A stretch of DNA of 64,000 bases, taken from positions 169,501-233,500 of the forward strand of contig NZ_JNIX01000007.1 in assembly GCF_000701445.1 (NCBI RefSeq). The letters run 5' to 3'. The first letter of the stretch is position 1, and each line of letters opens with the position of its first letter. Under the pieces are notes generated by a model. The model had not been told where the DNA came from, did not search any database, and saw nothing but the letters and a program-made list of their open reading frames with translations. The position numbers were made by a program, and so were the translations under genes. Origin of the DNA: Brevundimonas bacteroides DSM 4726. Its GTDB lineage: Bacteria > Pseudomonadota > Alphaproteobacteria > Caulobacterales > Caulobacteraceae. Shown piece after piece: positions 9,907 through 22,100 of this stretch.

Positions 9907-10007
9907 GAAACCTCGCCGTCGTGACCGTCAGCCGCGCGGTCTAGCTGTCGAATGCGAGGGGAAAATGGCCTTGACGCCAATCGGTTCAGTCGGCTTTCGA
10001 TGGCCGT

Positions 10008-10433
10008 ATGATAGACAGGCCTATCCAAATCCGAGCCCTGCGCACCGACGACTGGCCCGTCGTCCATCCGCTTATCGCCGAGTTGCGCTCTCTGTCCGAG
10101 GCGGAGTTCCTTGAGGCGATGACGCGCCAGACCCAGCACGGGTACCAGATGGTCGGGGCATGGTCGGTGGATCGCTGGGTCGGAGTGGTCGGATATCGAC
10201 CGGTACGGACGCTCGCGCGCGGGCTGCACCTTCATGTCGATGATCTGGTCGTGGATCCTGGCGTCCGGGCTTCGGGGATCGGCCGTGCCCTGTTGGCCCA
10301 TGTCGAGGGCGAGGCGCGGCTGGCGGGTGCCAAGTCCATCTTCCTCGATGCCCGTCCGGAATCGATCGGCTTCTACGAGCGAGAGGGTTTCGTGCCTCAC
10401 ACGTCGCCGTCCATGGTGAAGCGAATGCTCTGA
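10008..10433 (+). CDS. GNAT-family N-acetyltransferase
   Basis: This is a 141-residue GCN5-related acetyltransferase. The order of elements fits the fold: N-terminal IQIRALRTDDW, central beta strand LHVDDLVVDPGVRASGIGRALLAHVE (the acetyl-CoA pyrophosphate-binding loop, pattern R-x-x-G-I-G-R-A), and C-terminal GFYEREGF. The substrate is unknown. It lies opposite in strand to the two glucan enzymes on either side and converges on the glycosyltransferase with 21 bases between the stops. Confidence 0.88.
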   Translation: MIDRPIQIRALRTDDWPVVHPLIAELRSLSEAEFLEAMTRQTQHGYQMVGAWSVDRWVGVVGYRPVRTLARGLHLHVDDLVVDPGVRASGIGRALLAHVEGEARLAGAKSIFLDARPESIGFYEREGFVPHTSPSMVKRML

Positions 10434-10454
10434 GGGCGATCGGCCTGGGCGCGG

Positions 10455-11561
10455 TCAGGCTATCGCGGCGAAGCTGCGGTCCTCGTGCAGCGGGACGACC
10501 ACGTCGCTGAGCGCCGGCTCGGCGAAGGGGCGCTTGGCCAGCAGATCGCCGTAGACGTCCAGATACCGCCGGGCCATCGCCGTGGCCGAGAAGCGCAGTT
10601 CGAACCGCGCTCGGATGGCCTCGCGATCCAGCAGGGGCGCGCGGTCGGCGGCCGCGATGGCCTGTTCGATGGTGTCGACCAGGAAGCCGGTCGCGCCGTC
10701 CTCGATGATCTCCGGCGTCGAGCCGCAGCGGAAGGCGACCACGGGCGTGCCGCACGCCATCGCCTCGATCATCACCAGGCCGAAGGGCTCGGGCCAGTCG
10801 ATGGGGAACAACAGGGCGTCCGCGCCGCCCAGGAAATCCGACTTCTGGTGGTCGCCGATCTCGCCGATGAACTCGATCAGGGGGTTGCCGTCGATCAGCG
10901 GCTTGATCTTGGTCTCGAAGTAGATCTTGTCCGCCGCGTCGACCTTGGCCGCCATCTTGAGCGTCTTGCCCAGCTTGGTGGCGATCTCGATGGCGCGGTC
11001 CGGCCGCTTCTCCGGCGAGATGCGGCCGAGGAAGGCGAGGTACCCGTCGGACTTCGGCGAGAAGCGGTACTGCTCGGCCGGCATGCCGTGGTGAACCGTC
11101 GCCTTCCAGTTGGCGAAGGCCAGCGGGCGACGCTGATGGTCCGAGATGGAGATCAGGCCGAAGTCGGGCCACCGCTCATAGACCTCGGGCAGGTCCTTCA
11201 TGTCGAGGCGGCCGTGCAGTGTCGTCACCGTCTTGTCCGCGAACCGCTCGAAGAACGGGAAATGGATCATGTCGGTGTGGAAATGGATCACGTCGAAGTC
11301 GTCGGCGCGGGCCAAGACCTCGGAGAGCATCGTCATATGCGCGGCTAGATCCGACTTCAGCGGTGCCGGGTCCAATCGGATGGCCTGATCGCGTACAGGG
11401 ATCAGCCGGGCCTTGGTCCGGGCCTCCGCCGACGCGAACAGGGTCACGTCATGACCCAGCTCGACCAGGGCGTCGGTGAGGTGGGCAACGACGCGCTCAG
11501 TGCCGCCATAGAGCTTGGGCGGCACGGCTTCGTACAGCGGCGTGACCTGGGCGATTTTCAT
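10455..11561 (-). CDS. Glycosyltransferase family 4 protein
   Basis: This GT-B fold retaining glycosyltransferase has 368 residues from the ATG at 11561 (MKIAQVTPLYEAVPPKLYGGTERVV); an in-frame start five codons earlier is possible. The donor-binding C-terminal half shows FLGRISPEKRPDRAIEIA and the E-x7-E motif region EPFGLVMIEAMACGTPVVAF. The sugar donor and acceptor are not known. The neighbouring glycogen-debranching-type gene suggests alpha-glucan or trehalose-type metabolism. Divergent from nothing; ccrM follows on the same strand upstream after a gap of about 130 bases. Confidence 0.9.
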   Translation of the reverse strand: MKIAQVTPLYEAVPPKLYGGTERVVAHLTDALVELGHDVTLFASAEARTKARLIPVRDQAIRLDPAPLKSDLAAHMTMLSEVLARADDFDVIHFHTDMIHFPFFERFADKTVTTLHGRLDMKDLPEVYERWPDFGLISISDHQRRPLAFANWKATVHHGMPAEQYRFSPKSDGYLAFLGRISPEKRPDRAIEIATKLGKTLKMAAKVDAADKIYFETKIKPLIDGNPLIEFIGEIGDHQKSDFLGGADALLFPIDWPEPFGLVMIEAMACGTPVVAFRCGSTPEIIEDGATGFLVDTIEQAIAAADRAPLLDREAIRARFELRFSATAMARRYLDVYGDLLAKRPFAEPALSDVVVPLHEDRSFAAIA

Positions 11562-11695
11562 GGCGAGCGTTCCCACGCCCCGGGCAGCAGCGGGCGCGAG
11601 AGTTGAAACCGGTCACCTCTGGAAAGGTTCCGTTCCCACGATCGATTTCCACCAATGTTTTCGGTAGGTTACAGGAGCGCTATGTACGTTGGCCG

Positions 11696-12892
<1,197 letters not shown>

Positions 12893-12905
12893 CTAAGCGG
12901 CTCGG

Positions 12906-14336
12906 ATGATCGCGCGCCTTCGACCCGTCCCCTTCGACCTCGGCCCCGTCCACTTCGTCGGCATCGGCGGCATCGGCATGAGCGGCATCGCCGAGATCAT
13001 GCTCAAGATCGGCTATTCGGTGCAGGGCTCCGATGCCAAGTCGAGCGCCAACACCGAGCGGCTGGAGAAGCTGGGCGCGAAGATCTTCATCGGCCATGAC
13101 GCTGCTCATGTCGGCGAGGGGGTCTCGGCCGTCGTCTACTCCACGGCCGTCAAGCCGACGAACCCCGAGATGATGGTGGCGCGCGAGCGGCGGATCCCGC
13201 TGGTGCGGCGGGCCGAGATGCTGGCCGAACTGATGCGGCTGCAGTTCTCGATCGCGGTCGGGGGCACCCACGGCAAGACCACGACGACGTCCATGGTGGC
13301 GGCCCTGCTGGACGCGGCGGGGCTGGATCCCACGGTGGTCAACGGCGGGATCATCAACGCCTATGGCACCAACGCCAAGGTCGGCGACGGTGACTGGATC
13401 GTGGTCGAGGCGGACGAGAGCGACGGCAGCTTTCTGCGCCTGAAGTCGACGGTGGCCATCGTCACCAACATCGACCCGGAGCACCTGGATCACTACGGCG
13501 ACTTCGACGCGGTGCGGAAGGCGTTCTGCGACTTCGTCGAGAACATTCCCTTCTACGGGTTCGCGGCCGTGTGCCTGGACCACCCGGAGGTCCAGCGGCT
13601 GGTGGCCTCGATCGATAACCGGCGCATCGTCACCTATGGCATGAACCCCCAGGCGATGGTCCGGGCAGACAAGGTCGAGATGGCCCCCGACGGGGCGCGC
13701 TTCGACGTGCTGATCCAGGGGCGGGGTCTGGCGGCGCTGGACGAGCCGGTGCGGATCGAGAATGTCCACCTCCCCATGGCCGGCTGGCACAATGTCGCCA
13801 ACGCTCTCGCCGCCATCGCCGTGGCGCGCGAGCTGGACGTCTCGGACGAGGCGATCCGGGCGGGCCTGGCTGCCTTCGCGGGGGTCAAGCGGCGCTTCAC
13901 CACAACCGGTGTCGTCAACGGCGTTCGCATCGTCGACGACTATGGGCACCATCCGGTCGAGATCGCGGCCGTGCTGAAGGCCGCGCGCCAGGTGGCCGAG
14001 GGCCGAGTGATCGCCGTGGTGCAGCCCCACCGCTTCACCCGCCTGCGCGACCTGATGGACGAGTTCTCGACCAGCTTCTCGGACGCCGACAGCGTCATCG
14101 TCGCCGATGTCTATGCGGCGGGCGAACAGCCCATCAAGGGCGTAGATAAACAGGCCCTGGTCGACGGCATCCGTCGCTATGGCCACCTGAGGGTCTCGGC
14201 GCTGGAGAACGCGGCCGTCCTGCCGCGCGTCATCGCCGAGGAGGCCAAGGCGGGTGACGTGGTGGTGCTGTTGGGCGCCGGCGATATCACCGCCTGGGCC
14301 TATGCCCTGCCGGCGCAACTGGAGGCGCTCGCGTGA
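12906..14336 (+). CDS. murC: UDP-N-acetylmuramate--L-alanine ligase MurC
   Basis: This cytoplasmic enzyme adds L-Ala to UDP-MurNAc using ATP, the first amino-acid addition of peptidoglycan precursor synthesis. The 476-residue protein has an N-terminal Rossmann domain ([15 protein letters not shown], residues 16-30), the ATP loop GTHGKTTTT (120-128), central [10 protein letters not shown], and a C-terminal ligase domain with [11 protein letters not shown]. It opens the mur-ddl-fts cluster and diverges from ccrM. It overlaps murB by four bases (GTGA), suggesting coupled translation. Confidence 0.98.
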
Positions 14337-15244
14337 GCTGGCGCGATGCTCTGCCCGCCGTGCGTGGAAAGCTGGTGCGCGATGAGCCGTTGGCCCCCTA
14401 CACCTGGTTTCGGGTCGGCGGGGCGGCGGACGTGCTGTTCATTCCCGCGGATGCGGAGGATCTGGCGAGCTTCCTGAGGGCGCTCGATCCGGTCGTGCCG
14501 GTGACGGTCCTGGGCGTGGGCTCCAACGTCATCGTGCGGGACGGAGGCGTCGAGGGCGTGGTGATCCGGCTGGCGGGGCGGCTCTTCGCCGGGATCACGA
14601 CCGAGGGCGACACGATCACGGCCGGCGCGGGCGCGCTGGACGCCATGGTGGCCAAGGCCTCGGCCAAAGCCGGGATCGCGGGACTGGAGTTCTACGCCGG
14701 CATTCCGGGCACGATCGGCGGCGCCCTGACCATGAACGCGGGGTGCTATGGGTCCGAGACCAAGGACGTCCTGGTGTCCGCGAGGGGCGTCATGCGAAGC
14801 GGGGAATTGAGGGAGTACTCGCTGGAGAACTTCGGCTACTCATATCGCCACAACAGCTACGACGAAGACATCCTCTGGACCGAGGCGACCTTTCGCGGAA
14901 CGCCCGACGATCCTGAGGCTGTCGCCGCCCGCATCGCCGAGATCACCGCGCGGCGCGAGCAGACCCAGCCGATCCGCGAGAAGACCGGCGGCTCGACCTT
15001 CAAGAATCCGCGGGGCCATTCGTCCTGGAAGTTGGTCGACGAGGCGGGCTGGCGCGGGCGGCTGCACAGGGTCACCGGCGGCGGGGCCAAGTTCAGCGAG
15101 CTCCATTCCAACTTCATGATCAACCCCGGCGAGGCGACCGCCGCCGACATCGAGGGTCTGGGCGAAACTGTCCGCGCCGACGTCCTGGCCAAGACCGGCA
15201 TCCAGTTGGACTGGGAGATCAAGCGCCTCGGCCGTGTCGGCTGA
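14333..15244 (+). CDS. murB: UDP-N-acetylenolpyruvoylglucosamine reductase MurB
   Basis: This FAD enzyme reduces UDP-GlcNAc-enolpyruvate to UDP-MurNAc with NADPH. It has 303 residues: the FAD-binding segments [15 protein letters not shown] and [14 protein letters not shown], the catalytic region [29 protein letters not shown], and HSNFMIN near the end. The GTG start overlaps murC. The last codons encode [13 protein letters not shown] near-copy of this tail, LEWEIKRIGRPS, recurs after the next gene at 15748-15783, so the current 3' end may have been created when the DUF5946 gene inserted. Confidence 0.97.
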
Positions 15245-15734
15245 TCTCCAGCTGTGTCCCGGCTGCGGCTCGCAACTGGCGGCCGTCGACGGACCGACCC
15301 ACGCCTATATGACGTCATCACCGGCCTGCTGGGCCGCGTTCAACGCCGTGATCGCACGGGAGTTCGCCGATCCCGGCCTGATGGACATTCACCGCCTGAC
15401 GGTTGACGCCTGGGCCGTACAGCATCCCGGCGACGGTTCGCGCCGGGCCATCCAGTCAGTCGGCTTGCATCTGGCGCGGCTGTGGGTCCAGCTGGATCAG
15501 GGGATTTCCGGGCCGACGGCGAACGCGGCCATGCTCGGGTTCGCCGAGCGGAAGGCCGATCTTCCGGAGTTGCCGCCACGCCAAGTCTATACTGTCACGG
15601 TCGCGTACGTGGTGGATGCGTCCGAGCCCGATGCGCATCGCTCGGCCGTCATGACCTGGGCGCGGGCGGTCTGGACCGATTGGGCCGATCAGCACGAATT
15701 CATCCGGCAGTGGGCGATCGGGGGATCAAAGTAA
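15234..15734 (+). CDS. DUF5946-like protein inserted in the mur cluster
   Basis: This is a 166-residue protein resembling DUF5946: CPGCG at residues 8-12, then [11 protein letters not shown] with Cys32, and a helical remainder with conserved Trp and His ([10 protein letters not shown]). Cys8, Cys11, His23 and Cys32 may bind zinc. Its function is unknown. The GTG start overlaps the murB 3' end by 11 bases. It is not a normal member of the mur-fts cluster. A second copy of the murB tail lies directly behind it, which points to an insertion. The family call is from memory of the N-terminal motif. Confidence 0.75.
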
Positions 15735-15744
15735 ACTCGACGTA

Positions 15745-15786
15745 AACCTTGAATGGGAGATCAAGAGGATCGGCCGCCCGTCATAA
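15745..15786 (+). pseudogene. Orphan copy of murB 3' tail
   Basis: In frame +1 from 15745 the DNA reads NLEWEIKRIGRPS then TAA (15784-15786). The true murB ends [13 protein letters not shown]. Nine of thirteen residues are identical and the rest are mostly conservative. The shared DNA core is GGGAGATCAAG. There is no start codon and the stretch is too short to be a gene. It is best read as the former murB 3' end left behind after the upstream gene was inserted. Confidence 0.7.
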
Positions 15787-15807
15787 GCCCAAGCTAGAAC
15801 AGCCCTC

Positions 15808-16746
15808 ATGTCCCCACCCCTGTCAGAGCTGCACGTCGCCGTCCTGATGGGGGGGCTCTCCTCGGAGCGGGAGGTGTCGCTGTCGTCGGGCAAGGGCTGC
15901 GCCGACGCCCTGGAAGGCCAGGTCGCGCGGGTCAGCCGGGTCGACGCGGGTCGCGACCTGGCGCAGGTGCTGACCGAGCTCAAGCCTGACGTCGTCCTGA
16001 ACGCGCTGCACGGCGAGTGGGGCGAGGACGGGTGCGTTCAGGGCATCCTCGAGACGCTGCGGATCCCCTACACCCACTCCGGCGTCCTGGCCTCGGCGCT
16101 GACGATGGACAAGGACAAGACCAAGTCGATCCTGAAGGCGGCGGGCGTGGCCGTGCCCGGCGGCGGCCTGTTCGACCGGCATGAGGTGGCCCGCCGCCAC
16201 GTCATCGACCCGCCCTACGTCATCAAGCCCAACGCCGAGGGCTCCTCGGTCGGGGTTTATCTGGTGCGAGAAGGTGCCAACGGCCCCCAGACCGAAGTTG
16301 GGTCCGACGACTGGACCTATGGCGACCTGGTGATGGTCGAGCCCTATATCCCCGGCAAGGAACTGGCCGTCGCCGTCATCGGCGAGGTGACCGGGCCGCG
16401 GGCCCTGACGGTGACCGACATCACCCCCGTCAAGGGCTTCTACGACTATGAGGCCAAGTACGCGCCGGGGGGATCGGTCCACAAGCTTCCGGCCGACATC
16501 CCGGCCCACGTTTTCGAGGCGGCGCTGAGGGAATCCGAGCTGGCGCATGCGGCGCTGGGGTGTCGGGGGGTCAGCCGGACCGATTTTCGTTATGACGATG
16601 TTAAGGATGTGCTCGTCCTTCTGGAGGTCAACACCCAGCCCGGCATGACGCCGACCTCGCTCGTTCCAGAGCAGGCCGCGCATCTGGGCATGAGTTATCA
16701 AGACCTGGTCCGGTGGATGGTGGAGGACGCCTCATGCCCGCGGTAG
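15808..16746 (+). CDS. ddl: D-alanine--D-alanine ligase
   Basis: This enzyme joins two D-Ala with ATP for the peptidoglycan stem peptide. The 312-residue ATP-grasp protein has N-terminal [19 protein letters not shown], the ATP-binding [17 protein letters not shown], and C-terminal [24 protein letters not shown] with metal-binding Glu and Asn. It sits in the usual place between murB and ftsQ, apart from the inserted DUF5946 gene. Its 3' end overlaps ftsQ by 13 bases. Confidence 0.97.
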
Positions 16747-17618
16747 TTCGCGGCGGTCGACGCGCGCAGTCCGCGCCGGCTCCGAAACGCAGCGCGGGTC
16801 CGCGAGGACAGGGACGCGGTCGCGCGCCCCGGAACGTCGGCGGGGTGCCCGGCAAGATGGCGGCCTTGGGTCGGCTGGACCTCAGCCCGCGCGCCGTCGT
16901 CATTTCCATCTGCGCGGGCGTGGCTGTGCTGGCCTTGGTCATGGCGACGGGATCGCGCGCCGAGCGGATCGGGCAGTCGTTGTCGAGCGGCCTCGACGGT
17001 GTCACCGCGGGCCTCGGGCTGAAGCTGAACCGCGTGCACATCACCGGCGCCTCCGATGAGGCGACGCCGGCGATCCAGCGGGCGCTGGACGTCGAGGCGG
17101 GTCAGCCGATCACGACGCTGGACCTCGACGCGCTGAAGGCCAGCGTGGAAGAGGTGGGCTGGGTCAGGGAGGCGCGGGTGGTCCGCCTGCTGCCCGACAC
17201 CCTGATCGTCGAGGTCAAGGAGCACGACCGCCTCGCCGTCTGGCAGACCGGCGGGCGAACCTACGTCATCGACAGCGAGGGGCGCGCCATTCCGGGCGCC
17301 GACGCCGGGCGCTATCCCAACCTACCGCTGGTGGTCGGCAAGGGCGCCGATGCGGCGGCCGGAGCCCTGCTGCCGCTGCTCGCCCAGCGTCCCCGCCTGA
17401 TGGGCCGGGTGGACGCCATCGTGCGGGTGGACGAGCGGCGCTGGGACCTGCGGCTTAGGGACGGCGGCATCATCCAGCTGCCGGCGCTCAATCAGGAGGC
17501 GGCCCTGATCCAGCTGGACGCGCTGGATCAACGCGAGCGGCTGCTGGAGCTGGGCTTCGCCCGCATCGACCTTCGCACCGAGGGCCAGGTGGCCGTGCGG
17601 CCCGGCGCCTCGGCCTGA
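16734..17618 (+). CDS. ftsQ: Cell division protein FtsQ
   Basis: FtsQ is a bitopic inner-membrane divisome scaffold that links FtsB/FtsL to the septal synthase. From ATG 16734 it has 294 residues: a basic cytoplasmic N-terminus, a transmembrane segment [18 protein letters not shown] (about residues 47-65), a POTRA domain ([17 protein letters not shown] to [14 protein letters not shown]), and the beta domain. ATG 16734 has GGAGG about 7 bases upstream and is preferred over the in-frame ATG at 16713. Neighbours ddl and ftsA fit the canonical order. Confidence 0.94.
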
Positions 17619-17646
17619 GCGACAGTAGAGTAGGGGATTTCACGGG

Positions 17647-18987
17647 ATGGCGGGCAAGAAGGGCGATCCGGCGGCTGACGGCGCGAAGTTCGACAAGGGC
17701 GGCCTGAACAATCGCGCGCCAGTCGTCGCCGCGCTGGATCTGGGCCAGTCCAAGGTCGCCTGCTTCATCATGAAGCCCGACGGCGTTCGCCACGCCGACC
17801 GCACCATTCGCGTGGCGGGGGCCAGTCACGTCCAGTCCAAGGGCGTGAAAGGTGGCTCCATCGTCAATATGGACGAGGCCGCCCAGGCCATCGGCCACGC
17901 CGTCGAGCGGGCCGAGCGCACGGCAGGGGCCCCCGTGTCCGGCGTTATCGTCACGACCGCCATCGGCCAGATGGCCAGCCACCGGGTGCAGGCCCGGGTG
18001 TCACTGGGGGCCAATCCGATCGGCGACGCCGATCTGGCCCGCGCCATCGGCATGGCTCTGGCCCAGATTCGCCTGCCCAACCGGCGGCCAATCCATGTTC
18101 TGCCCATCGCTTGGTCGGTGGACGGAGCGCGCGGCGTGCACGATCCGCGCTCCATGCGCGGCGGCTCTCTGGGGCTCGACCTGCTGGTCGTGTCCATGGC
18201 CGAGAGCGCTTTCAACGCGCTCAGCCACTGTCTGGAGCTGGCCCATCTCGATCTTCAGGGCGTAGCCGCCGCGCCCGTCGTGTCGTCGCTCGCCGCGCTG
18301 GAAGAGGACGAGATGGATCTGGGCTGTGTCTGCATCGACATGGGCGGGGGCTCGACCTCGGCCGCGGTCTGGGGCGGACGCTCCTTGCTGCATGTCGAGT
18401 CGCTGAATGTCGGCGGCGATCACGTGACGGCCGACATCGCGCGAGGTCTGTCAACGTCCAAGGCCGGCGCGGAACGGCTGAAAACCTTGCACGGCTCGGC
18501 CATGGCAGCCGCCCATGAGGACCGCGAGATGCTGGAGGCCCCGCCGCGCGGCGAGGAGCCCGGAGCGGGGCCCGTGATCGTGCCCCGCGCCATGCTGAAG
18601 ACCGTCATCGCGCCGCGCGTCGAGGAGACGTTGGAGCTGTTGCGTGACCGACTCAAGGCGGCTGGCGCGGGCCTCGATCCTGGCGCGGGTCTGGTTCTGA
18701 CAGGCGGTGCCAGCCAGCTGAACGGCGTGCGGGAGCTAGCAGTCCGCGTGTTCGATCGCCCTGTGCGACTGGGGCGACCGCAGCGCGCCCCGCACTTGGC
18801 CGACTCGGCGGCGGGTCCAGCCTTCTGTTCGGCAGCGGGGGTGTTGCTAAGGGCAGCCTACGGCCCCCGAGAGGCGGTCTCGGCCCGCAAACTCATGTCG
18901 CGACAGATCACCGCAGCGGACGCGCCTCGCGTTCATCGAGGAAATCTGGTCGCGCGCGCAGCGGGTTGGTTACGCGACAACCTTTGA
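17647..18987 (+). CDS. ftsA: Cell division protein FtsA
   Basis: This actin-like ATPase tethers FtsZ to the membrane and recruits later divisome proteins. The 446-residue length fits. Key segments are VAALDLGQSKVACFI (phosphate 1), a 1C subdomain with RPIHVLPIAWSVDG, CVCIDMGGGSTSAAVW (phosphate 2), and VLTGGASQLNGV (adenosine). The C-terminal NLVARAAGWLRDNL is an amphipathic membrane-targeting helix. In Caulobacter ftsZ follows directly; here a TonB receptor gene lies between them. Confidence 0.96.
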   Translation: MAGKKGDPAADGAKFDKGGLNNRAPVVAALDLGQSKVACFIMKPDGVRHADRTIRVAGASHVQSKGVKGGSIVNMDEAAQAIGHAVERAERTAGAPVSGVIVTTAIGQMASHRVQARVSLGANPIGDADLARAIGMALAQIRLPNRRPIHVLPIAWSVDGARGVHDPRSMRGGSLGLDLLVVSMAESAFNALSHCLELAHLDLQGVAAAPVVSSLAALEEDEMDLGCVCIDMGGGSTSAAVWGGRSLLHVESLNVGGDHVTADIARGLSTSKAGAERLKTLHGSAMAAAHEDREMLEAPPRGEEPGAGPVIVPRAMLKTVIAPRVEETLELLRDRLKAAGAGLDPGAGLVLTGGASQLNGVRELAVRVFDRPVRLGRPQRAPHLADSAAGPAFCSAAGVLLRAAYGPREAVSARKLMSRQITAADAPRVHRGNLVARAAGWLRDNL

Positions 18988-19155
18988 CCGTTGCTGGACC
19001 TGTGTCCGGACTGTGTCCTCGCTGTAACAAAAACGCCGCTTGAAGGGCTTTTCGCCGCCGTAATCGTTGCAGTCACGTAATTTATCGCTAGCGTCTCCGA
19101 CCGACGGTCACCATCCGACAAGAGTGGCCATAGTTTCAGGGCTCAAGGGGCACGC

Positions 19156-22100
19156 ATGAATACGTCAAAGCGCAACTATCTCTTCGGAACCACGGTCTTG
19201 GCAGGCATGCTGGCCGTCGCCGCCCCGGCCTTCGCCCAGGACGCCGCTCCTCAGCAGGACGAAGAGGCGACCGAGGTCGAAGAGATCGTCGTCACCGGCT
19301 CGCTGATCCGTCGCGACCCGACAACGGCCCCGACTCCGCTGATCCAGACGACCCGTGAGGAAATCATTCAGCAGGGTGAACAGAACGTCGTCGACTTCCT
19401 GGCCGACATCCCGGCCCTGCAGAACAGCCAGGTGCCGGAAGACACCACCGGCGGCTTCGTCGGCATCGGCGGTCTGTCCACCCTGAACCTGCGCAACCTC
19501 GGCGGCGCCCGCACCCTGGTGCTGGTGGATGGCCGTCGTCACGTCGGTGGCAACCGCGGCGGCGTGAGCGTCGACGTCGACACCATTCCGACCCCGCTGA
19601 TCCAGAGCGTGGAGATCATCACCGGCGGCGCCTCGTCGCTGTACGGCGCCGACGCCGTCTCTGGCGTGGTCAACTTCATCATGCGCACGGACTTCGAAGG
19701 GATCGAGTTGGACGCGGGCGTCAGCCAGCTGACGCAGGACGAGGGCTCGCTGAACCAGCGCTACTCCGTGCTGGTCGGTCGCAACTTCCTGGACGACCGC
19801 CTGAATATCTACGGCTTCGCCGAGTATCAGACCTCCGACATCGTCAACGACCGCGAACTTCAGATCGACTGGATTCAGAACGAAGAGCGTCTACAGAACG
19901 TGGATTTCGATCCTGCCAGCGCGCCGAACGATGGCAACCGCGACATTGAGCGGATCGCCGGTCTGCGGACCCTCAGCCGTCCGTTCGGCGGGATCCTGAC
20001 CATCGCCAACGGCCAGCAGCCCTCGCCGACGTCAGATCCGGATATTGGCTACTCGGGTTGCGGTAGCAACGGCACCGCCTTGGTCCCGCTGACCGCCGCT
20101 CAGAACAACACCTTCGGCAACACGGGTTGTTTCCCGATCAACGTAGGTTCCAGCTTCCGCTTCCGTGAAGGCGGCACCCCTTACGCGATCGATATCGGTA
20201 CGGGCTTCATCCCCAACGGTACCGCCGGTCGCACGCTCACCGTCGGCGGCAACGGCGACGGCCTGGTCGTTCAGGATATCAACCGCCTTCCCGAGCAGGA
20301 GAATAAGCGCTTCCAGGTCGGTCTGAATTTCGAAGTCACAGACAACATTGATGCCTTCGCCGAGTTTAAGTACGTCGACGACTATAATCTCGACGTCTTC
20401 CAGCCACACTTCTCAGACGTCGGTATTCGGCCGTTCGTGGGCAACGAGTACGGCATTGTCGACGCGGCGACCCTGACATCGGGTCGCATCGGTTTGGACA
20501 ATGCTTATCTTGATCCGGCGCTGCGGACAGCGATCCAAAACAACGTCCGTACTGTATACGCCGCCAACGGGACCGTGTTGGGTACCCAGGCCGATCCGCG
20601 CGCCGCTTTCCGCCTGTTTAGCTACGACCTTGGCTTCCGTCCGCAGACGAATGAGCGCGAATTGACCCGCTTCGTGGGCGGCTTCCGTGGCGATTTCGAC
20701 CAGTTGCTTTTCCTCAGGGACGGCCAGTGGGAACTGGGCTACACTTTTGGCCAGACCGACATCGTCAACAACGAGCCTGAGACGATCGATCTCCAGCGCT
20801 GGTTCTTCTCGGCCGACGCCGTGCGCGACACCGCCAACGTCGTGGGTCAAGGTGCCAACGCCATCGTCTGCCGGGTCCAAATCTTGTCGCGTCAGGGCGT
20901 GCCGATCATCAACCAGGCGACCGGCACGGCCTATGCCGCCAACGATCCGACCATCACGGGCTGCGTGCCGCAGAACATCTTCGGCCTTGGGGGGCAGGCG
21001 GTCGCCCGCAACTACATCCTGACGGACTTCCTCCGGACCGACACCAATACCCAGGAAGACTGGCGCGGGTTTGTGTCCGGCAACCTTTGGGATTTCTGGG
21101 GCGCGGGTCCCATCGGCATCGCGCTGGGCGGCGAGTACCGCAAGGAAAGCTGGGAATCGACAGTCGCTGACTTTGGTCCGCGGGTGCTGTTCGGCAACAG
21201 CGGCTCAAACCTCGATGAGGTCAGCTATGATGTGACCGAAGGGTTCGTCGAACTCCGTGTGCCGTTGCTGACAGACGTGCCGTTCGCTCAGACGCTGGAA
21301 CTCAGCGGTGCCTTCCGTTACTCGGACTACTCGACGGGTGACCAGACGGAAACCTACAGCACCGCCCTGTTCTGGCAGCCGATCGACGACATCGCCTTCC
21401 GCGGAACGTACGGCGAAGCGTCGCGTGCGCCGACCCTGAGCGAGTTGTTCAATCCGCTCGCTGCGACCTTCCCGAACATCACGGACGGTTGCTCACTACC
21501 GGTGATCAATGCGACCAGCGACACGCGCATCCGCAACAACCGCATTGCCAACTGCGCGGCGCGGGGCGTGCCGGCGACTTATGTCGACCCGAACCCAAAT
21601 ACGTCCAACTCGGGCTTCTCGGGCTCAAATCCGAACCTCCTCACCGAGACCTCGACGTCCTATACCCTGTCGACCATCCTGACCCCGACGTTCTTCCCCA
21701 ACTTCGAGGTCGTGCTGGACTACTATTCGATCGACATCGACGACGCGATCGCAACTCTCGGCATCCAGACGCTCGTCAATCTCTGCTATGACGAGGACGT
21801 GTCGAACACCAACGCCTGCGGACAGTTCACCCGCGATCCGACGACCTTCGAGATCACGAACTTCATCCAGGGGCCGTTCAACTTCGCGGGTCTGCGCGCC
21901 CGCGGCATGGACTTCCAGGCCAGCTACCGCACCGACCTGCTGGACCTGATCGGCCGTGACTGGGGTACGCTGAACTTCTCGTTGGCGGGCAACTATCTGA
22001 TCCGCCGTCAGGACTTCACCAGCCCGACGGACCCGAACTTCCCGACCCAGATCGACGGCACGGCGAACAACCCGCGGGTTCGTTTCCGGACCAACACGAC

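Follow-up and report, generated by a model that had tools for sequence, protein, structure and literature searches.

Organization of the murB-ddl locus

The analysed window is a stretch of 64,000 nucleotides from Brevundimonas bacteroides DSM 4726 (genome G000, 3.22 Mb). In this window, an intact murB gene is followed by a DUF5946 gene, a second murB 3' end, and the genes ddl, ftsQ, and ftsA. The features are listed below, with the two classes of murB end defined in the next section.

14333-15244, forward strand: murB, intact (open reading frame; Pfam MurB_C and FAD_binding_4)
Within 15158-15184, forward strand: breakpoint in murB, preceded by recipient-type sequence (identity break against G088)
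15185-15244, with the left edge somewhere in 15158-15184, forward strand: murB tail of class b type, imported on our reading (mismatch counts)
15234-15734, forward strand: DUF5946 cargo gene, 166 amino acids (PF19371; GTG start inside murB)
15727-15786, forward strand: orphan murB 3' end of class A type, on our reading the former tail of the recipient (homology to G088)
15731-15747, forward strand: direct repeat GTAAAC-N5-GTAAAC, the presumed regulatory box of ddl-ftsQ-ftsA
15787-15807, forward strand: ddl leader of the neighbours' type, ..GCTAGAACAGCC.. (compare the leaders of G088, G091, and G005)
15808-16746, forward strand: ddl (open reading frame; Pfam)
16713-17618, after ddl in the presumed operon served by the box: ftsQ (open reading frame; Pfam)
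17647-18987, after ftsQ in the same presumed operon: ftsA (open reading frame; Pfam)

The DUF5946 gene overlaps murB by 11 nt, and the orphan frame at 15727-15786 has no start codon of its own. An earlier note on this DNA had placed the true end of murB at 15244 and a second murB tail behind the DUF5946 gene, which the open reading frames and homology confirm. The orphan frame that it drew at 15745-15786 is real, although the orphan is longer and begins at 15727. From the orphan to the ddl ATG (85 nt, 15726-15810), 80 positions are identical to the true murB end and ddl leader of G088, 81 to G005, and 81 to the orphan of the sister genome G039. These identities to the murB ends of relatives identify the orphan as homologous and rule out chance similarity. 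The two murB tails of the window form a 26-nt direct repeat with 85% identity (15209-15234 and 15751-15776).

Two types of murB end across Brevundimonas

murB was found in 130 of 131 genomes of the genus, and 129 loci were analysed (the window and the regions fetched from 128 other genomes, with G011 left out). They were labeled as 28 class A, 92 class b, and 9 with a relic. Class A was defined by GTAAAC-N5-GTAAAC in the last murB codons, so the box is present in class A by definition, while class b includes default assignments (G067, truncated; G003 and G029, frame-broken; G001, a short gap without the box). Six loci have no ddl in the stretch examined. The murB genes of class A (28 genomes) mostly end in ..QSKLGVNLEWEIKRIGRPL or PS, and those of class b (92 loci) are followed by a spacer or other genes. 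The distance to ddl provides a box count independent of the class A definition: ddl starts -4 to 21 bp after murB in 28 genomes without DUF5946, of which 27 carry the box (the exception is G001). The prediction of the earlier note, that relatives lacking DUF5946 have the orphan-type murB end before ddl, thus holds in 27 of the 28 genomes with ddl at most 21 bp from murB. Relatives with the current tail type of the window and no orphan, named in the same note as counting against its reading, do exist (class b, 92 of 129 loci); we read them as the donor type, and they are not the nearest relatives. In the window and G039, the order is a class b type murB tail, DUF5946, and a class A tail.

The synonymous-codon identity of class A is 0.84 in the tail (18 codons) against 0.63 in the rest of murB (277 codons; 28 genomes), with a p value of 1e-4 that is overstated by the relatedness of many class A genomes; the class b control, which is more reliable, gives 0.64 in the tail against 0.66 in the rest (88 genomes). 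The last 20 codons of class A murB (e.g., L037 of G088 and L034 of G091) are near-invariant in DNA and resemble sequence with dual use, coding and regulatory.

Outside Brevundimonas, b-like murB tails occur in 15 loci of one genus (15 of the 31 genomes searched, with ddl beyond the stretch). Another genus, also with 15 loci, has murB tails such as KFGVTLEWEIKRIGR, and in the seven with an identified ddl this gene lies at -4 to 386 bp. Because none of these 30 murB loci of two other genera has the GTAAAC pair, the box inside murB looks like a derived trait on sequence comparison; the sharing of LEWEI between the second genus and class A runs counter to this.

The DUF5946 gene

The product of the gene matches PF19371 with an E value of 2e-35 and 122.8 bits, against a Pfam gathering cut-off of 28. 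PF19371 was found in 13 of the 390 family genomes searched, and the 10 copies in Brevundimonas, that of the window and orthologues in nine other genomes, all lie between murB and ddl. The gene is not beside murB, within the stretch examined, in two of the three other Caulobacteraceae carriers (L164 and L165). In eight genomes DUF5946 stands behind a class b murB with no relic found. The sequence ATT-GG near the murB end provides the TTG start of DUF5946 in seven of these eight class b carriers and in G039; G026 has ATC-GG at that position, and the GTG start of the window lies 6 nt later. All eight class b carriers have the DUF5946 stop codon within the box that precedes ddl (GGTTGA..); in the window, where it is TAA, and in G039, the stop falls in the class A box. 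Since DUF5946 starts inside murB, moving the gene moves the murB end, and the tail and DUF5946 travel together. The murB end of G117 (L069) retains the ATT GGC codons of the DUF5946 carriers, yet no DUF5946 follows it; the copy has perhaps been lost.

The window DUF5946 DNA is 71-75% identical to the class b copies, and its fourfold divergence from G039 (13 of 82 sites) is lower than that of murC and ddl. Cys and His residues are invariant in 11 aligned sequences. The AlphaFold2 model (mean pLDDT 84) has a predicted helical fold, with no match in the PDB at E <= 0.001. Distant DUF5946 genes are found on two Deinococcus plasmids. There was no match among 50,697 phage records that would indicate a phage origin and none in the PADLOC families, and a literature search for the word DUF5946 found no paper.

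Breakpoint in murB and history of the locus

The murB genes of G000 and G088 are 95% identical in alignment columns 900-1020 and 72% identical in columns 990-1110. In the last 135 nt, 5 mismatches to G088 fall in the first 75 nt and 25 in the last 60, and these last 60 nt have 10 mismatches to the DUF5946 genome G108. This identity break against G088 indicates an exchange that is limited to the last 60-87 nt of murB. The switch from the neighbour type to the class b type keeps the frame, and the left side has the character of a homologous junction.

A tree of rpoB was built from 39 of the 40 fetched genomes (G120 was dropped for stop codons, and G107 is absent) and gives (G116,(G000,(G088,G039))) with support of 1.0, 1.0, and 0.96. 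A four-gene dcw tree, which carries no support values, pairs G000 with G039 and groups both with G088 and G091. G088 has a plain class A junction without an insert, and its nesting with G039 inside the inserted pair on rpoB (0.96) implies either that G088 lost the insert or that a second transfer took place. As the donor lies outside the sample, the direction of transfer rests on tail type and phylogeny. Together, the tail types, the grouping with G088, and the identity break uphold the proposal of the earlier note that a gene arrived with a replacement murB 3' end and left the old end orphaned. On the four-gene tree, the states class A, class b, and relic change 18 times, where shuffling gives a mean of 33.2; on rpoB, they change 15 times, with 17.7 as the mean and 12 as the minimum of the shuffles. 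The history of the locus is tangled, and on rpoB the state tracks descent hardly above chance. G097 has two full-length rpoB genes (contigs C28 and C26), of which the tree includes the C28 copy, on a long branch.

Conservation of the orphan and the presumed ddl promoter

The orphan differs between the window and G039 at 1 of 61 positions, and the working tail at 12 of 63 (Fisher p 0.002). Given the fourfold divergence of 26% for murC and ddl between the two genomes, the probability of 1 in 61 in the orphan is 1.6e-7. In the adjoining ddl, 47 of 192 fourfold sites differ, and the conservation is therefore not explained by a recent regional exchange. The orphan overlaps the box GTAAAC-N5-GTAAAC, which resembles a CtrA-type site. 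Being better conserved than the working tail and overlapping the presumed promoter, the orphan is probably not debris; it probably serves as the promoter of ddl-ftsQ-ftsA.

The exact box occurs once in the window (0 of 100 shuffles) and once in the whole genome, and TTAAC-N6-TTAAC occurs twice in the genome. A general regulon for the box was rejected, as the exact pair is found once in this genome. The box GTAAACTCGACGTAAAC reads TAAA-N7-TAAA and departs from the CtrA consensus TTAA-N7-TTAA. For comparison, the CtrA-controlled ftsQA site of Caulobacter is given as GTTATGACGACATTAAC in the available portion of PMC3751295. The CenR motif, TGA-N8-TGA in the excerpted text of PMC9275681, was also rejected, as GTAAACTCGACGTAAAC by eye holds no TGA. 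The accessible part of a Brevundimonas GcrA/CcrM paper (PMC7987155) has no murB, ddl, or ftsQ. In class b, TTNA-N7-TTAA, a motif of the CtrA kind, lies at most 160 bp from ddl in 50 of 87 genomes, against 5 of 4350 shuffled stretches. Near ddl in the same 87 genomes, the GTAAAC pair occurs in 10, GTTAAC alone in 18, and none of these motifs in 9.

Recurrence of the relic layout with other cargo

The relic layout was identified in 9 of the 129 Brevundimonas loci: G000 and G039, with DUF5946, and seven others with five further types of cargo, each followed by a class A-like relic:

G116: S15 peptidase (Pfam)
G106 and G114: Phd antitoxin and PIN toxin (family call in G106; G114 by similarity)
G107: DUF2189 (family call)
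G025: a 257-amino-acid protein with no Pfam match
G071 and G100: cytochrome b561-YceI (family call in G100; G071 by similarity)

At least four of these genomes (G116, G106, G114, and G071) are metagenome assemblies, and single cases need caution. Relics were recognized by an intact box together with a short peptide pattern; this search overlooks those whose box has decayed, and box retention among the relics is circular. The distribution of relic and no relic requires a minimum of seven changes, gains or losses, on the four-gene tree and six on rpoB. Phd-PIN pairs also stand between murB and ddl without a relic in G124 and G055. All seven other relics carry missense changes, and one has a stop.

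The left edges of the relics vary. The relics of G107 (0 of 100 shuffles), G114 (1 of 100), and perhaps G106 (3 of 100) reach about 25 nt further left. The left extension is 48 nt in G100 (2 of 100 shuffles), only 10 nt in its relative G071 (59 of 100), and absent in G116. In G000 and G039, the class A match beyond TCAAA is weak and is reached by 10 and 5 of 100 shuffles, respectively. In G114 (L049 and L222), two related Phd-PIN pairs flank the relic; the second cargo separates it from ddl, and the box is about 840 bp from ddl.

Comparable arrangements were observed in two genomes of another Caulobacteraceae genus. In G145, an intact murB is followed by three opposite-strand open reading frames, a murB 3' fragment (L321, 4207-4332) that stops about 300 bp short of ddl, and ddl itself. 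In G148, an inner piece of murB (L322, 2726-2857) stands behind a PIN/antitoxin pair, and no ddl was found.

Traces of the box also occur in class b spacers. ATCAAG lies 10-11 nt behind the spacer GTAAAC pair in 6 of 10 class b genomes, against 11 nt in class A. Five of the six (G113, G086, G075, G074, and G118) have no cargo and keep the box and ATCAAG in the spacer within 1 nt of the class A register; the sixth is G006. The spacer pair and ATCAAG in these six genomes are possibly older tail relics.

Proposed mechanism and alternative explanations

We consider it likely that homologous recombination brought a class b tail together with DUF5946 into a class A murB, and that the old tail was kept with the promoter it bears. 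Before the event, murB would have run almost directly into ddl, with the box in its last 20 codons, as is seen in class A relatives. The incoming DNA would have come from another Brevundimonas, in which a class b murB tail was overlapped by the DUF5946 gene. Its left end may have been joined by homologous recombination inside murB, and its right end, sharing little homology or none, immediately to the left of the box. The route could be homology-facilitated illegitimate recombination; alternatively, a single crossover of the Campbell type could have occurred, with subsequent loss. Afterwards, murB is intact with what would be the imported tail, DUF5946 lies behind it, and the presumed former tail is non-coding. 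With the ddl promoter of class A inside murB, there would be no neutral insertion point between the two genes, and an insert would survive only if it brought a spare murB end and left the box in place, which would act as a selective filter. The orphan would then be retained as the ddl-ftsQA promoter, and neither an integrase nor a fixed attachment site would be required.

The strongest rival is that the murB end was first duplicated in tandem, and that cargo later entered the new spacer while the first copy diverged or was converted. This would provide the two tails and account for the varied cargo. The ten class b genomes that keep a spacer GTAAAC pair, six of them with ATCAAG in near register, fit it as well, and the five of these six without cargo (gaps of 81-267 bp) could be empty duplications or could have lost their cargo; these possible empty duplications make recombination slightly weaker as an explanation and tandem duplication slightly stronger. 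Against it, the first tail copy matches the class b type seen in other Brevundimonas, in G039 this copy contains the ATT codon from which DUF5946 takes its start, and a readable two-tail genome without an insert was found in none of the 129 loci when searched by an intact box and short peptide pattern. We regard duplication before cargo arrival as unlikely. It is still less probable, in our view, that DUF5946 stood behind murB in the ancestor of the genus and was lost in class A by deletion between the tails. The gene does occupy this place in scattered Brevundimonas, its divergence is not in itself a sign of transfer, and a loss of this kind could lie behind the nesting of G088 with G039 in the rpoB tree; yet precise in-frame deletions would be required in many lineages, and the orphan would have had to stay codable though non-coding, against the missense changes in all seven other relics and the stop in one.

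The earlier note had likened the insert to a site-specific element that preserves its target, and we find this likeness hard to sustain. A restored target gene, a 26-nt direct repeat at both ends, and repeated use of the murB-ddl locus are all in keeping with such an element, whose integrase might have been lost or have acted in trans. Nevertheless, no recombinase Pfam family was found in DUF5946, murB, ddl, murC, ftsQ, ftsA, the neighbouring methylase, or six further open reading frames, and no tRNA in 10000-22000. The two copies of the repeat share only 85% identity, and their differences are those between class b and class A tails. The cargo is unrelated between cases and the left edges of the orphans vary, which leaves no common attachment core, and DUF5946 lacks a match in the phage records. 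An integrative element of this kind is thus very improbable.

Extending the recombination reading to the genus is more tentative, and we put it a little short of an even chance. The murB-ddl junction of Brevundimonas might be a site of integrase-free cargo exchange created by the promoter in the murB coding end, where incoming genes would persist only with a spare murB end and each event would leave the old end as a working non-coding promoter. Similar logic may apply at other tightly packed essential gene pairs. If true, accessory genes could become established between essential genes without the help of a specialized integration enzyme, and the orphan gene end would be a readable scar that can be counted across genomes. 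A regulatory site within murB codons may then govern how ddl and the division genes are expressed in some members of Brevundimonas.

Comparison with known systems

Some phages and islands that insert at the ends of tRNA and protein genes supply their target with a new 3' end. The murB locus is similar in that the target receives a replacement end and the old end is left at the far side; unlike in those elements, no integrase was found, there is no fixed core, the cargo can be a single gene, and the edges are variable. Our literature search, in the portions of text it returned, found no published description of this murB-ddl locus.

Homology-facilitated illegitimate recombination is described, in the part of PMC3240628 available to us, from laboratory conjugation in E. 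coli, with three naturally competent species cited. It shares with the proposed route a homologous joining at one end, an illegitimate joining at the other, and the lack of an integrase. In contrast to that system, the events here would be anchored in murB, involve several types of cargo, and are deduced from genomes. Chromosomal hotspots of horizontal transfer, as outlined in the excerpt of PMC5635113, likewise hold varied accessory genes at one place between conserved genes, whereas here the end of the core gene itself appears to be swapped and a relic left. The box is also comparable to the CtrA-controlled ftsQA promoter of Caulobacter, for which the available text of PMC3751295 gives a pair of half-sites spaced by 11 bp and located upstream of division genes. 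Unlike that promoter, the box reads TAAA-N7-TAAA and, in class A, lies inside the coding end of murB.
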